Assembly (NCBI RefSeq): GCF_004340665.1 | Contig: NZ_SLWO01000001.1 | Span: forward strand, 808,450 to 872,449 | DNA length: 64,000 nt | Reading direction: 5' to 3' | DNA from: Pedobacter psychrotolerans | GTDB taxonomy: Bacteria > Bacteroidota > Bacteroidia > Sphingobacteriales > Sphingobacteriaceae | In this document: positions 5,956 to 10,389 of the stretch, piece after piece | Layout: each line of letters opens with the position of its first letter | Numbering within the stretch: position 1 is the first letter of the stretch | Translations under genes and position numbers: made by a program | Notes under the pieces: generated by a model | Told to the model about the DNA's origin: nothing | What the model saw: only the letters and a program-made list of their open reading frames with translations | Databases searched by the model: none

Positions 5956-6492
5956 TTAAACATATTCAAAAAAACTAAAAGATGAGTTTCCGTATTTTCG
6001 CGTTTCGGTATACCCGGGCTGGCTATTGAGTTTCATGTTACTTTGATGCTCAACCACTAATAATCCGTCAGGCTTAAGCAATTGCTGTTCTTGTACCAGA
6101 ATAGGAAGTTGTGGAATATTTGGCATATTATAAGGTGGATCAGCAAAAATTAAATCGTAAGCACCTGTCATTTGCTTCAGTATTTTAAAAACATCACCCT
6201 TACGCACTTCCACCTGATTAAATTCATATTTCTGTGCAGCGCTTTTTACCCAATTCACACAACCGTAGTCCATATCTACCGCTAAAATTTTTTCTGCATT
6301 TCGGGATGCAAATTCAAAAGTCAGGTTTCCTGTTCCGCAGAATAAATCAAGCACGGTGCAGGTATCAAAATCAAATCTGTTATTTAAAATATTAAAAAGT
6401 GCCTCTTTGGCCATATCCGTAGTGGGGCGGACAGGTAGATTTGCAGGTGGCTGCAAACGGATACCTTTCAGTTTACCTCCAATTATTCGCAT
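5956..6492 (-). CDS. rsmD: 16S rRNA (guanine-N2) methyltransferase RsmD
   Basis: A 178-residue Rossmann-fold enzyme that methylates G966 of 16S rRNA using SAM. It has the hallmark N-terminus MRIIGGKLKGIRLQPP, the SAM-binding motif VLDLFCGTGNLTFEFASR (about 45-62) and the catalytic DPPY motif (IFADPPYNMP near 118). Its start overlaps the end of the DUF3822 gene by 10 bases, so the two are translationally coupled on one transcript. This rsmD-DUF3822 pairing is conserved in Bacteroidota. Confidence 0.95.
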   Translation of the reverse strand: MRIIGGKLKGIRLQPPANLPVRPTTDMAKEALFNILNNRFDFDTCTVLDLFCGTGNLTFEFASRNAEKILAVDMDYGCVNWVKSAAQKYEFNQVEVRKGDVFKILKQMTGAYDLIFADPPYNMPNIPQLPILVQEQQLLKPDGLLVVEHQSNMKLNSQPGYTETRKYGNSSFSFFEYV

Positions 6493-7289
6493 AAACTTAG
6501 AGCAAGTAAGCCGCTAAAATAGTGTTTAGGCATATCGGCCAGCAATTCACAATTTTGTTTTTCAGCAGGAAGGAAGAAGTATAGGTTATTAAAATATTTT
6601 AGCAGTGTATTGTAATAGTCATCATCTTCATTAATAATCCCCTGAAGATATACTGGCACAGATTCAGTGAGGCCCAACTGTTCCATGATTAATAATAGGA
6701 AATAATTAAATTCTTCGGCAGTTTCCGCTGAATAATGATTCTGGAAATTGATTTTCTTATCCTTTGCAAATAAAACATTAAATGAAGATGCTGTAAAGTC
6801 GATTAATAAAGCATCACCAGACAATTGTCTAAACAAAGCAAGCAAAGGTGAAGAATGTGGATAAACAACAGCGTTTTCTGGAAGTTCTTGTTCTATCTTT
6901 TCTTCAAAAGAGAAAACAGTATTAAAACCAAGATGCTCATGGTGTTTGCTGTAAATCTTTCCATCAGAACTTAAAAAATTGGTATAAATAGATAAATCAT
7001 CAGCATTAAACCATTCATTAGGAATAAAGACAAAATTTGAGGTATGTATGGCAGCTTTTACAGATTCATACGATTGAGATAAATAACGATCTGCTTTAAA
7101 AGCATCCTTTAAAACATGTGGCAAATCTTCACAACCTTGCTGATCAAATATTACCTTAACTTGCTTGGAGTCCTGATCAACCACTGCATATGAAAAACTA
7201 TCGTTTGTTATTTTTAATAATAACTGATAGTTTACTGATGCATCAGCTTTAAAATCCGGGTCTACCAATAATAGGCTGTTATTCCTCAT
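6483..7289 (-). CDS. DUF3822 family protein
   Basis: A 268-residue protein with no signal peptide or membrane span, found across Bacteroidota directly upstream of rsmD. It has an actin-like ATPase look: two repeated alpha/beta halves, with FSYAVVDQDSKQVKV early and ALLIDFTASSFNVLFAKDKK near residue 165, reminiscent of strand-turn-strand nucleotide-binding elements in Hsp70/PilM-type folds. That fold suggestion is inference. Function unknown. A perfect -7 box (minus strand, 7302-7295) ends 5 nt before its ATG. Confidence 0.8.
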   Translation of the reverse strand: MRNNSLLLVDPDFKADASVNYQLLLKITNDSFSYAVVDQDSKQVKVIFDQQGCEDLPHVLKDAFKADRYLSQSYESVKAAIHTSNFVFIPNEWFNADDLSIYTNFLSSDGKIYSKHHEHLGFNTVFSFEEKIEQELPENAVVYPHSSPLLALFRQLSGDALLIDFTASSFNVLFAKDKKINFQNHYSAETAEEFNYFLLLIMEQLGLTESVPVYLQGIINEDDDYYNTLLKYFNNLYFFLPAEKQNCELLADMPKHYFSGLLALSLCE

Positions 7290-7294
7290 TATCG

Positions 7295-7302
7295 CAAAAA
7301 TA
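7295..7302 (-). promoter_or_regulatory. -7 box of the DUF3822-rsmD operon
   Basis: CAAAAATA on plus is TATTTTTG on minus, a perfect TAnnTTTG ending 5 nt before the ATG at 7289. A minus-strand TTTG (CAAA at 7324-7327) lies 21 nt further up and could be the -33 box. Confidence 0.6.
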
Positions 7303-7545
7303 GTGTTTTTTAAAGATTAACTACAAAGTGCAGAGCGTTTTTTCACGAAGTGCTAACAGTTGAGCGGAACGAACGACAACCGTTAATTATTTAATTTATG
7401 AAATGCTCCTCATTAATTGAAAATGATACTTCAATTTTACCCCTTACATTTACTTTTATTACTTAGTATTCATCGTCTAAAAAAAGCAAGAAATCTTTTG
7501 ACCAAAATCAAACTTTCATTTATTAGAAATTTCAAATATTCGGCT

Positions 7546-7553
7546 TAAATTCG
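7546..7553 (+). promoter_or_regulatory. -7 box of the DACNV gene
   Basis: TAAATTCG matches TAnnTTTG at 7 of 8 positions and ends exactly 4 nt before the ATG at 7558, the spacing seen at pyrE, coaD and the Hpt gene. Confidence 0.45.
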
Positions 7554-7557
7554 GAAC

Positions 7558-8697
7558 ATGAGTTATACGTCTACTTATAAAGCCGCGAATACGGTTGCTG
7601 CTAAAATTGAGCAACATTTTATTCGCTTGCATCAAAATGCCGCATCGCAGGGAGAGGTTGATCTGGCTTCTCAGCCTGACAGGAAAACAATAGAGGCATT
7701 GATAGACGTGGCTTTTTGGAGCAGCCTGCGGAAAGAAGAAGGACACTCACCTCGTATATCCGTTGCTTTTTTACCGCCTTCTCAAACTTCAAAACCTTTA
7801 AAATTTGCAAAACCATTACCATTAAACGCCAATACACTTACTAAAATAGCACCGGGTATAGAACGCTCTGGTATTCACTTAGGGGTATGGGAAGAGAATG
7901 GTGAGTTATACATCTGGGGTACAACCTTAAATATTCCCAACTTTTGTTTCGTAGTGGATGTTTCTGAACCCGGATTAATTGTAATTAAACACCGTCGGAT
8001 TTATGGCATTGGAAAATATACCAATGTGGCGGTTTTAAAGGGGGAACAAATCAGAATTGTGGATGATACTTCCTGTACAAATCGTGATTGTCCGCCGATT
8101 TTAAAAGCTTTATTGGATTTAACTGTATTGGCCAGTTGGAATGATCCGATTAACATCCTGATCCAGTTTTCGGTTTCCATGCGTGGGCACGGGCGTGGTG
8201 GTGCTTTATTGATTGTGCCAAAAGAAAATACCAAATGGAAAGATTCAATCATTCAACCTATTCAATACTTAATTGAACCTCCTTTCTGTGGCCTGTCAAA
8301 TTTGGCTAAACAAAGCGGTAACCAGACTGAAATTTTCTCACAGGGTGCGTTAAGGCGAGAAGTAGAACATTTAGCAGGCTTAACCGCTGTTGATGGCGCC
8401 ACCATTATTAATGATCAATTTGATCTAATTGCTTTTGGCGCTAAAATCGGTCGTGCAAAAGGTAAACCTACAGTAGAGCAAATTGCCTTTTCTGAGCCTA
8501 TCGTTGGTGGAGAAGATAAACTGCTGTATCCAGGTCAGCTTGGTGGTACAAGACATTTTTCGGTGGCTCAGTTTGTGAATGATCAACCCGATGCCATTGG
8601 ATTGGTAGCATCGCAGGATGGTCATTTTACGATTTTTAGCTGGAGCAAACAGCAGAAAATGGTCATGGCACACCGGATTGAAACATTATTATTGTAA
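7558..8697 (+). CDS. DACNV sensor plus DAC-like (diadenylate cyclase fold) protein
   Basis: A 379-residue soluble protein that I read as two domains. The N-terminal half (about 1-230) resembles the 'DACNV' domain described as a probable sensor attached to DAC domains. The C-terminal part (about 231-379) shows the two motif regions of DisA_N/DAC cyclases: DGATII at 279-284, and GGTRHFSV at 329-336 where classical enzymes have GTRHR. A strand-rich LVASQDGHFTIFSW follows, in the place of the canonical VSEExG stretch. DAC domains condense two ATP into c-di-AMP. Phe334 replaces the usual second Arg, so activity or product could differ. It is a single gene with its own promoter. The domain reading is by motif only. 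Confidence 0.7.
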   Translation: MSYTSTYKAANTVAAKIEQHFIRLHQNAASQGEVDLASQPDRKTIEALIDVAFWSSLRKEEGHSPRISVAFLPPSQTSKPLKFAKPLPLNANTLTKIAPGIERSGIHLGVWEENGELYIWGTTLNIPNFCFVVDVSEPGLIVIKHRRIYGIGKYTNVAVLKGEQIRIVDDTSCTNRDCPPILKALLDLTVLASWNDPINILIQFSVSMRGHGRGGALLIVPKENTKWKDSIIQPIQYLIEPPFCGLSNLAKQSGNQTEIFSQGALRREVEHLAGLTAVDGATIINDQFDLIAFGAKIGRAKGKPTVEQIAFSEPIVGGEDKLLYPGQLGGTRHFSVAQFVNDQPDAIGLVASQDGHFTIFSWSKQQKMVMAHRIETLLL

Positions 8698-8798
8698 AAT
8701 AAATTGCTTAATTGTTGGATGGTTTTAGTGTTGGAAGGACTCACTGGAAATTTAAATCGTTTATGTATTTTGTAAGGGTTAACATTAAAAAGAGCTAG

Positions 8799-8806
8799 TA
8801 TCTTTG
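8799..8806 (+). promoter_or_regulatory. -7 box of the helicase transcript
   Basis: TATCTTTG is a perfect TAnnTTTG. Transcription would start near 8811-8813, giving an unusually long (about 140 nt) leader before the helicase ATG at 8956. Confidence 0.55.
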
Positions 8807-8830
8807 CCTTTTAAACCGTATTGTAGTGGC

Positions 8831-8920
8831 ATACCCCGTTTTATGGGGGATATAGCTGAAAGACGGACCATAGAACCCGATCAGCACAATTGCTTTCTAA
8901 ATCATTAAAGCAAGCGCTTT
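8831..8920 (+). ncRNA. Structured leader RNA upstream of the helicase
   Basis: Three hairpins follow one another: ATACCCC with GGGGGAT (8831-8852); GCTGA with TCAGC (8855-8859 / 8881-8885) enclosing a 21-nt loop; and TTGCTTT with AAAGCAA (8890-8896 / 8907-8913). The last is in conflict with AAAGC:GCTTT (8907-8911 / 8916-8920), so two mutually exclusive folds are possible just before the gene. The layout resembles a cis-regulatory leader. Some phrases recall the TPP riboswitch (GCTGA, GAACCCGATCAG), but the rest of that consensus is missing. A class cannot be assigned. Confidence 0.35.
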
Positions 8921-8955
8921 TCAAAACAATTTACCAATAAAACGATTCAACAATA

Positions 8956-10389
8956 ATGTACCTAGATAAAAGTCAACTCATTGCACAAGCTTATGAACAC
9001 GTACCCACTAAAGAGCAATTGCTTTTTTGCGAACGGATGTCGAAGTTTCTGCAGGAAGAAGATGAATATCGTTGCTTCGTTTTAAAAGGCTATGCCGGTA
9101 CCGGTAAAACCACATCGGTTGCGGCTTTGGTAAAGGTGCTGGCTAAATTTAATTTAAAAAGTGAATTGCTGGCACCAACAGGTCGTGCGGCAAAGGTAAT
9201 GAGCCAGTATTCTTCACGAAAGGCTTTAACCATTCATAAACGAATTTATCGGAAACGCTCGGCGGCATCGCCGGAAATGCAGTTTCAGATTGCTCCAAAC
9301 CTTTCCGAAAATACCCTCTTTATTATTGATGAGGCATCCATGATTGCCGATGAATTTAATGAAACAGGTTCTTCTATTTTGAGGGATTTGTTAGAATTTG
9401 TCTATAACACTAAAAATTGTTTATTGCTTTTTGTTGGTGACACAGCACAATTGCCACCGGTGGGAAGTTTAGACAGCCCAGCCTTAAATGAACAGTATTT
9501 AAAGGATAAATTTGCATTAACCATCACTGGAGTAGAATTAAAAGAAGTTGTAAGACAGGGAAAGAAATCGGGTATTTTGGCCAATGCGACCATGCTGCGG
9601 AACCAAATTTCAAAAAATCCCAAAAATCCCCTTCCAAAATTTCTTACTAAAAATTACACGGATATTTACAATATGGCGGGTGCCAGGCTGGTAGAGGGAT
9701 TGGAATATGCCTACCGCAAGTTTGGAATGGAGAATACGCTGGTGGTTTGCCGATCTAACAAATCTGCAAATATTTACAACCAGCAAATCCGGGCGAGGTT
9801 GTTATACCGAGAAGAGGAGTTAACAGGTGGCGATCAGATTATGGTGGTTCGCAATAACTATTTTTGGCTCCCGGAAAACGAGGAAACGGCTTTTATCGCC
9901 AATGGAGATATGGCTAAAGTGATCCGGGTGAGGGGAGAGGAAGAACGCTATGGTTTCCGATTTGCCGATGCCACCTTAGAATTTATGGATTTTCAGGCAG
10001 CAGGACAAATTAGCTGTAAAGTGATGCTGGATACCTTAAATATCGAATCAGCAAACTTGCCTTACGAGCAAAATAAAAAGCTTTTTGATGGTTTAAATGA
10101 AGATTATGGGCACATTGCAAATAAGCGGCAGCGCATGCTAGCGATTAAAGCTGATCCTTTTTACAATGCCCTGCAAATTAAATTTGCTTATGCGGTAACT
10201 TGTCATAAAGCACAAGGTGGTCAATGGGATGCGATTTTTGCCGACCAAGGCTACCTGACTGAAGATATGATTGATCTTGATTTTCTACGCTGGTTGTATA
10301 CGGCTGTAACGCGGGCTAAGAAGGAGTTATATCTTGTTAATTTTGCGCCTCAACTTTTCGCAAAAACCGCGCAGGAGGATTATTTTTAA
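8956..10389 (+). CDS. ATP-dependent DNA helicase, RecD2/Dda-like superfamily 1B
   Basis: A 477-residue helicase. Walker A GYAGTGKT is at 45-52, motif Ia APTGRAAKVM at 73-82, Walker B DEAS at 125-128, motif III GDTAQLPPVG near 165-175. The C-terminal UvrD_C_2 segment has AYAVTCHKAQGGQWD (about 413-427), then YTAVTRAKKELYLV. It lacks the long N-terminal region of RecD2 and any nuclease domain, so it is closest in size to phage Dda-type helicases that are common single genes in Bacteroidota. Likely role: 5'-3' unwinding in replication or repair. It stands alone, behind the structured leader at 8831-8920. Confidence 0.9.
   Translation: MYLDKSQLIAQAYEHVPTKEQLLFCERMSKFLQEEDEYRCFVLKGYAGTGKTTSVAALVKVLAKFNLKSELLAPTGRAAKVMSQYSSRKALTIHKRIYRKRSAASPEMQFQIAPNLSENTLFIIDEASMIADEFNETGSSILRDLLEFVYNTKNCLLLFVGDTAQLPPVGSLDSPALNEQYLKDKFALTITGVELKEVVRQGKKSGILANATMLRNQISKNPKNPLPKFLTKNYTDIYNMAGARLVEGLEYAYRKFGMENTLVVCRSNKSANIYNQQIRARLLYREEELTGGDQIMVVRNNYFWLPENEETAFIANGDMAKVIRVRGEEERYGFRFADATLEFMDFQAAGQISCKVMLDTLNIESANLPYEQNKKLFDGLNEDYGHIANKRQRMLAIKADPFYNALQIKFAYAVTCHKAQGGQWDAIFADQGYLTEDMIDLDFLRWLYTAVTRAKKELYLVNFAPQLFAKTAQEDYF

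Follow-up and report, generated by a model that had tools for sequence, protein, structure and literature searches.

The last arginine of the RHR motif is treated in textbooks as part of the catalytic signature of diadenylate cyclases (DACs), the enzymes that make cyclic di-AMP (c-di-AMP). Here we describe a protein with a different residue at this place, encoded in 64,000 nucleotides of Pedobacter psychrotolerans DNA (contig NZ_SLWO01000001.1), a stretch that we call the window throughout. The gene of this DACNV/DAC-like protein, P0001, is an open frame of 379 amino acids on the + strand (7558..8697), and its translation carries DGATII at residues 279-284 and GGTRHF at residues 329-334, where a first-pass annotation of the sequence had placed them. 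Going by its predicted fold and site, the protein is a divergent relative of DACs, and it is a DACNV member as well. We consider it rather probable that it acts as an active second cyclase beside CdaA, its product probably being c-di-AMP.

Among described enzymes, DisA-type DACs (Thermotoga maritima 3c1y and Mycobacterium tuberculosis 9y9y) are the best structural match of the C-terminal half (Z 11.9-13.0). The window protein departs from DisA in that its DAC half is C-terminal, behind DACNV and with nothing after it, in having RHF rather than RHR, and in an identity of 10-14%. The CdaA/DacA-type enzymes, represented in the same genome by C5:36065, share with it the DAC fold, DGA, G-x-RH and the Ser of SEE, all in register; in contrast to them, the window protein has no hydrophobic N-terminal part (as judged by eye) and no His of HDGA, carries other residues for the last Arg and for the two Glu of SEE, and is missed by the Pfam DAC family. 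A longer DACNV paralogue of the same genome, termed type B below, has SQDG as the window protein does, whereas type B has RHR and has DGV or DGL for DGA. Residues 36-123 (7663..7926, + strand) are a clear member of the Pfam DACNV 'probable sensor domain' family PF21751, with 113.2 bits against a curated cut-off of 27 (E 6.9e-33). With this match in the N-terminal part and a predicted DAC fold in the C-terminal part, the DACNV-DAC fusion proposed at first pass is supported; its DAC-like part, however, is not the C-terminal third but a half of the protein, spanning residues ~176-379.

Predicted fold of the C-terminal half

The whole protein was modelled with AlphaFold2 from 48 sequences (predicted local distance difference test, pLDDT, 79.8; predicted template modelling score, pTM, 0.81). 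The DAC-fold half comprises residues 176-379 (8083..8694, + strand), and in VIA-align model residues 176-375 matched M. tuberculosis DisA (9y9y_D) with Z 13.0 and a root mean square deviation (rmsd) of 2.5 over 134 residues. Among the matches listed, rows 1-40 were all DAC proteins (Z 9.2-13.0) and the next row, a non-DAC, reached Z 3.0. The 50 Foldseek rows listed were likewise all DACs, at weak E-values (best 1.9e-3). The C-terminal half of the model thus superposes on DAC structures, in keeping with the assignment made from the letters at the outset.

The profile alignments gave the same picture. The C-terminal half was aligned with 30 Bacteroidota CdaA-type rows, some of them near-identical, and was in register over the domain (z 5.2, equalled by 0/60 column shuffles), the same-register elements being GALI, DGA, G-x-RH and the Ser of SEE. 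DGA fell on DGA and GGTRH on G-x-RH without guidance, both in these alignments and in an hhalign comparison at a low-confidence setting (E 0.001), and both motifs therefore stand at DAC active-site positions, as had been supposed. When the type B branch was joined to that of the window gene, hhalign against DACs rose to a probability of 90-93% (E 1.6e-6 to 2.2e-7), the aligned part being the 27-28 columns about RH and SQD; the type B branch alone gave 47% (E 1.9e-4). In the predicted secondary structure DGA is flanked by a helix and a strand, RH opens a helix and SQD follows a strand, a layout like that described for the DAC pocket (PMC7288161). As the C-terminal half overlays DAC structures and its motifs are matched unguided, we assign it a predicted DAC fold with a motif agreement beyond chance.

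Conservation of the active site

The relatives used here are the best 80 of at least 557 loci, in named genomes; 79/80 are labelled Pedobacter and the remaining one is a Sphingobacteriaceae metagenome-assembled genome (MAG). L002, L038, L018 and identical rows were dropped before the first family alignment, and L084 (an 850-residue frame), L128 (read from an overly distant upstream Met) together with identical rows ahead of the alignments of 95 and of 125 rows, the latter including the window protein. D279, G280, G330, R332, H333, S352, Q353 and D354 were kept in 125/125 rows. These residues belong to the DGA motif (residues 279-281; 8392..8400, + strand), in which A281 was found in 123/125, to GGTRHF, the counterpart of GxRHRx (residues 329-334; 8542..8559, + strand), and to SQDG, the counterpart of (V/I)SEE (residues 352-355; 8611..8622, + strand). 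Residue 331 was Thr in 121 rows and Ser in 4. GGALL (residues 214-218; 8197..8211, + strand) was profile-aligned to the GALI strand of DACs, and in 95 rows G214 and G215 were invariant, A216 varied (A, T, L, I, S) and L217 was Leu in 80, Val in 14 and Ile in 1. GGTRHL or GGTRHF was present in 80/80 named relatives, L084 and L128 counted.

The complete GxRHRxA motif was absent, the first Arg and the His being kept throughout and the last Arg in 0/125 rows. In place of (V/I)SEE all 125 rows have SQD, in which the Ser is kept, one Glu is replaced by Gln and the other by Asp. By score and by the full RHR and SEE motifs, the window protein is not a PF02457 member. Searches of NCBIfam with the 379-residue protein gave no match, and sequence searches of the PDB with the protein or its alignment gave weak, unrelated matches only.

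For Listeria CdaA with ATP, a review gives ten contacts, namely the side chains of Leu31, Asp71, Thr102, Arg103, His104, Ser122 and Glu124 and the main chain of Leu88, Gly101 and Glu123; of the RHR residues, the His and the first Arg are among them and the last Arg is absent (PMC7288161). Leu88 was unmapped, and the other nine have L217, D279, T331, R332, H333, S352, D354, G330 and Q353 as aligned counterparts. Seven of the nine were invariant in 95 rows, compared with 41 of the 204 columns of the C-terminal half (hypergeometric P 2e-4). The residue before DGA was Val in 78 and Ile in 17 of the 95 rows, with no His as in CdaA-type enzymes. DisA-type DACs, which use Mg2+, are likewise without His before DGA, according to PMC12974146, and since the window protein is like them in this, the missing His hints at Mg2+ use.

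Meaning of Phe334

The first-pass annotation had reasoned that Phe for the last Arg of RHR might mean another nucleotide product or a loss of activity, which the family does not bear out. Position 334 was Leu in 79, Phe in 45 and Met in 1 of the 125 rows, so that Phe334 is a fixed family trait and nothing peculiar to the window gene; in the 30 CdaA-type rows, too, RHx does not always end in Arg, RHR occurring 28 times and RHK twice. Because a hydrophobic 334 is family-wide and the site is not a listed ATP contact, Phe334 implies neither a loss of activity nor another product, and an altered product was rejected as a conclusion from this residue. Phe or Leu at this position is probably a change of packing and not of product.

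In published mutants, activity was abolished by changing RHR to AAA in M. tuberculosis DacA (PMC3328451), Mycobacterium bovis CdaM (PMC13022847) and Bacillus thuringiensis CdaS (PMC4568413), and in Leptospira CdaA the first Arg and the Asp were required while Ser222 contributed (PMC12974146). Speaking against a strict motif reading, Gly73 of DGA in M. tuberculosis DacA could be changed to Ala without loss of activity (PMC3328451).

By parsimony, it was the window-gene branch that would have lost the last Arg, as type B keeps RHR in 29/29 rows. L033 and L041 (both GGTRHL), from two genomes of a different family within the class, belong to the same branch, which makes an old loss probable. A family in which the other main contacts are kept and the last Arg never occurs offers a natural test of the role of this residue.

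Proposed function and rival explanations

In the mechanism that we propose, the protein would be soluble and two of its C-terminal halves would pair face to face, the arrangement of DisA and CdaA. Each would bind one ATP, with the adenine under the GALL strand, the ribose at D279 and the phosphates at T331, R332, H333 and S352, the metal being aided by D354, and the paired halves would together make c-di-AMP. The enzyme would be switched by its N-terminal half, through sensing of a signal or through setting of the dimer, and the protein would work alongside the CdaA-type cyclase. At first pass the choice had been left between a second, sensor-linked cyclase and an inactive binder; the DACNV-linked second DAC-like protein stands, and the invariant catalytic residues favour the cyclase over the binder.

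Several results count against an active cyclase or against the DAC assignment beneath it. The DAC side of the profile check failed, in that Pfam DAC (PF02457) gave no match to the 379-residue protein at E up to 1, and a PF02457 search of its own genome found two places without the window gene among them. In hhalign, the window-gene branch alone against DACs reached a probability of 21-22% (E ~0.001) and 0.1% when a global alignment was forced. In the window-gene family Asp takes the place of the metal-binding Glu of SEE. The inactive proteins of the mutant studies considered here were changed in the first Arg, in all of RHR or in the Asp (or Asp-Gly) of DGA, and in none of them was the last Arg changed alone. 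No neighbour accompanies the gene at both of its places among the 80 named loci, so that no operon partner was recognised there, and PF06153 (PstA type), the sole c-di-AMP receptor family searched, was absent from the own genome. Searches of NCBIfam with the 379-residue protein gave no match, and sequence searches of the PDB with the protein or its alignment gave weak, unrelated matches only.

The missing last Arg in 125/125 rows and the Asp at the metal site would also suit a pseudoenzyme, in which the DAC-fold half would bind ATP, ADP or c-di-AMP and, without catalysis, signal this to a partner or to the N-terminal half, all the more as the Pfam DAC protein found in 117/121 genomes of the family could supply all c-di-AMP. 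Pseudoenzymes, however, usually drift at metal and phosphate positions, and D279, G280, R332, H333, S352, Q353 and D354 are unchanged in every row; we hold this explanation to be rather unlikely, though the most probable one after the active cyclase. An active enzyme with another product, be it c-di-GMP, a mixed dinucleotide or a linear product, could be argued from the divergent surroundings of the active site, from the always hydrophobic 334 and from the DGA-RH spacing of 53, some 20 residues more than the 32 between D171 and R203 of Bacillus subtilis CdaA. No result of the analysis indicates another base, however, which makes such a product improbable.

A part in phage defence was considered since a DAC has been validated in DS-2, a system linked to CBASS (cyclic oligonucleotide-based antiphage signalling system) genes (PMC13092281). 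Against a role of this kind, the protein had no PADLOC match at E up to 1 and none in the plasmid and viral collections, no CBASS gene was recognised among its neighbours when these were read by eye without a profile search, and its distribution in the order is wide and mostly single. With the PADLOC, plasmid and viral-contig searches empty, the defence role was rejected and appears very improbable. An active second cyclase thus remains the reading that we prefer.

The DACNV half

The N-terminal half (residues 1-175; 7558..8082, + strand) was predicted alone, from 46 sequences and with the C-terminal half absent (pLDDT 79.6), and DAC folds were its best, weak match. Among the VIA-align matches listed, rows 1-32 were all DACs, with Z 4.7-6.6 in a range (below 8) that can reflect a common arrangement and with all DACs counting as one fold, and the next row, an unrelated chain, had Z 3.7. 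The match to 2fb5 had Z 6.6 and rmsd 4.3 over 120 residues, that to DisA Z 5.9 and rmsd 3.4 over 104 residues. The two best Foldseek chains were also DACs, without significance (E 0.95 and 1.7; probability 0.12-0.14). It is to residues 7-141/142 of DisA that both halves of the protein align, and the order of elements in the two, read from DSSP strings of the models, agrees if the N-terminal half is without the RHR helix.

None of the sequence comparisons tried proved the N-terminal half to be a DAC. With hhalign the best values were E 0.11 against DACs and E 0.044 over 13 columns against the C-terminal half; in profile alignment, 18/60 and 35/60 shuffles did as well. From the models we suggest, tentatively and with rather less than even confidence, that DACNV is a degenerate DAC domain minus the RHR helix, which would make the protein a tandem of pseudo-DAC and DAC in which the dead half pairs with or regulates the live one. 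The analogy is with animal adenylyl cyclases and their two unequal halves. If true, it would show how an enzyme that is an obligate face-to-face dimer gained an unequal, regulated partner.

Galperin (2023, J Bacteriol 205:e0002323) is cited for an architecture survey of this family. Among the literature matches listed, taken largely by their titles, work on inactive, degenerate, tandem or DAC-like domains concerned ordinary DAC dimers or unrelated matters only, and there was no occurrence of DACNG, DACNH, DACNK or DACND. The term DACNV was not found in the literature search, a search for R108/H109/R110 with c-di-AMP returned one match on another subject, and none was found for Bacteroidetes with c-di-AMP and Pedobacter.

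Genome complement and distribution

The window protein stands beside the CdaA-type enzyme C5:36065 (Pfam DAC, 139 bits, with RHR) as a second DAC-like protein of the genome, as had been anticipated at first pass. The genome further encodes the type B paralogue (C4:503767-505089, 441 residues, L181), with which the window protein is homologous over most of its length (hhalign 98.5%, E 2e-15; BLASTP E 8e-17), as well as two DHH proteins and one 7TM-HD protein of PgpH type. The DHH and 7TM-HD proteins are candidates for c-di-AMP breakdown, and the presence of the PgpH-type protein makes a c-di-AMP pathway in this genome likely.

The window-gene type, type A, was found in 35/59 genomes, which were 35/36 of the same genus (the own one included) and 0/23 others. 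Within the order it occurred in 220/300 genomes and 14/17 genera, with a single matching stretch in 176/220; among the genomes listed without it (20 of 80), 18 were of g25 and 2 of g27. Pfam DACNV was present in 11/395 genomes of a phylum sample and absent from 14 control genomes outside Bacteroidota, and Pfam DAC exceeded its cut-off in 36/61 genomes of another sample of the phylum. Given the wide spread of type A and the near-universal Pfam DAC of the family, the sequences indicate that the window gene is a widespread addition to the Pfam-DAC cyclase. As the Pfam DAC search misses this branch, many Sphingobacteriales genomes probably hold one more DAC-like protein than is counted.

Type B is accessory in the order (31/151 genomes, the matches in two being broken or partial) and had no match in the plasmid collection. 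Thirty loci gave its 29 aligned rows (L044 and L196 represent one gene, and L209, with a broken frame, was omitted), all of which have GTRHRS; type B also keeps SQDG and has DGV or DGL for DGA. The type B protein of the own genome, like L045 and L047, has the full RHR with DGV for DGA, and G538 and G478 carry a second type B copy, 38-42% identical. In a close relative (G009, C1:2970229-2971364) the type A gene lies in two overlapping pieces with a stop, either a broken copy or a sequencing error. In L084, a Pedobacter MAG, the gene (1377-2420 and beyond) breaks off near residue 345 and continues in frame into a downstream helicase-like gene, which may be an assembly error or a real fusion.

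Surroundings and upstream region

The upstream neighbour of the window gene is divergent and the downstream one lies on the same strand, 258 bases away. The neighbours that the gene has in the window, named here from their sequences by eye, are kept in 39/80 named loci (L049-L086 and L128), and the gene lies elsewhere in the other 41 (L087-L127). In L087-L128, PadR-like and PspC-like genes were each seen in 38/42 loci, 0.4-0.7 kb downstream in the three loci examined.

An own promoter, as given in the first-pass annotation, is plausible and unproven. The divergent upstream gene speaks for it, and so does the pattern TAAnTT, found 3-8 nt before the start codon in 78/80 relatives at both gene locations and in 6/47 control open frames; the pattern was picked after viewing the sequences, and the controls were window frames with ATG only. 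Against it, none of the 5 sites that a sigma-70 scan placed in 7250-9000 lay on the + strand ahead of the gene, and shuffles had a mean of 5.0. An Rfam scan of 6400-9100 found no RNA element. The TAAnTT of the relatives corresponds to a possible -7 element, TAAATTCG, just before the start codon (7546..7553, + strand), and an alignment of 33 upstream regions gave a conserved block, TCTTTTGACCAAAATCAAAC (7494..7513, + strand). We take TAAnTT to fit the Bacteroidota -7 consensus, and with its distance of 3-8 nt from the start this suggests a promoter so near the start codon that the message would be nearly leaderless. Within the poorly alignable upstream region, window 7494-7557 holds a conserved ACCAAAATCAAAC followed by TTAAATTCG just before the ATG, and ACCAAAnTCAAA was present in 30/38 loci of L049-L086 and in 0/42 of L087-L128.
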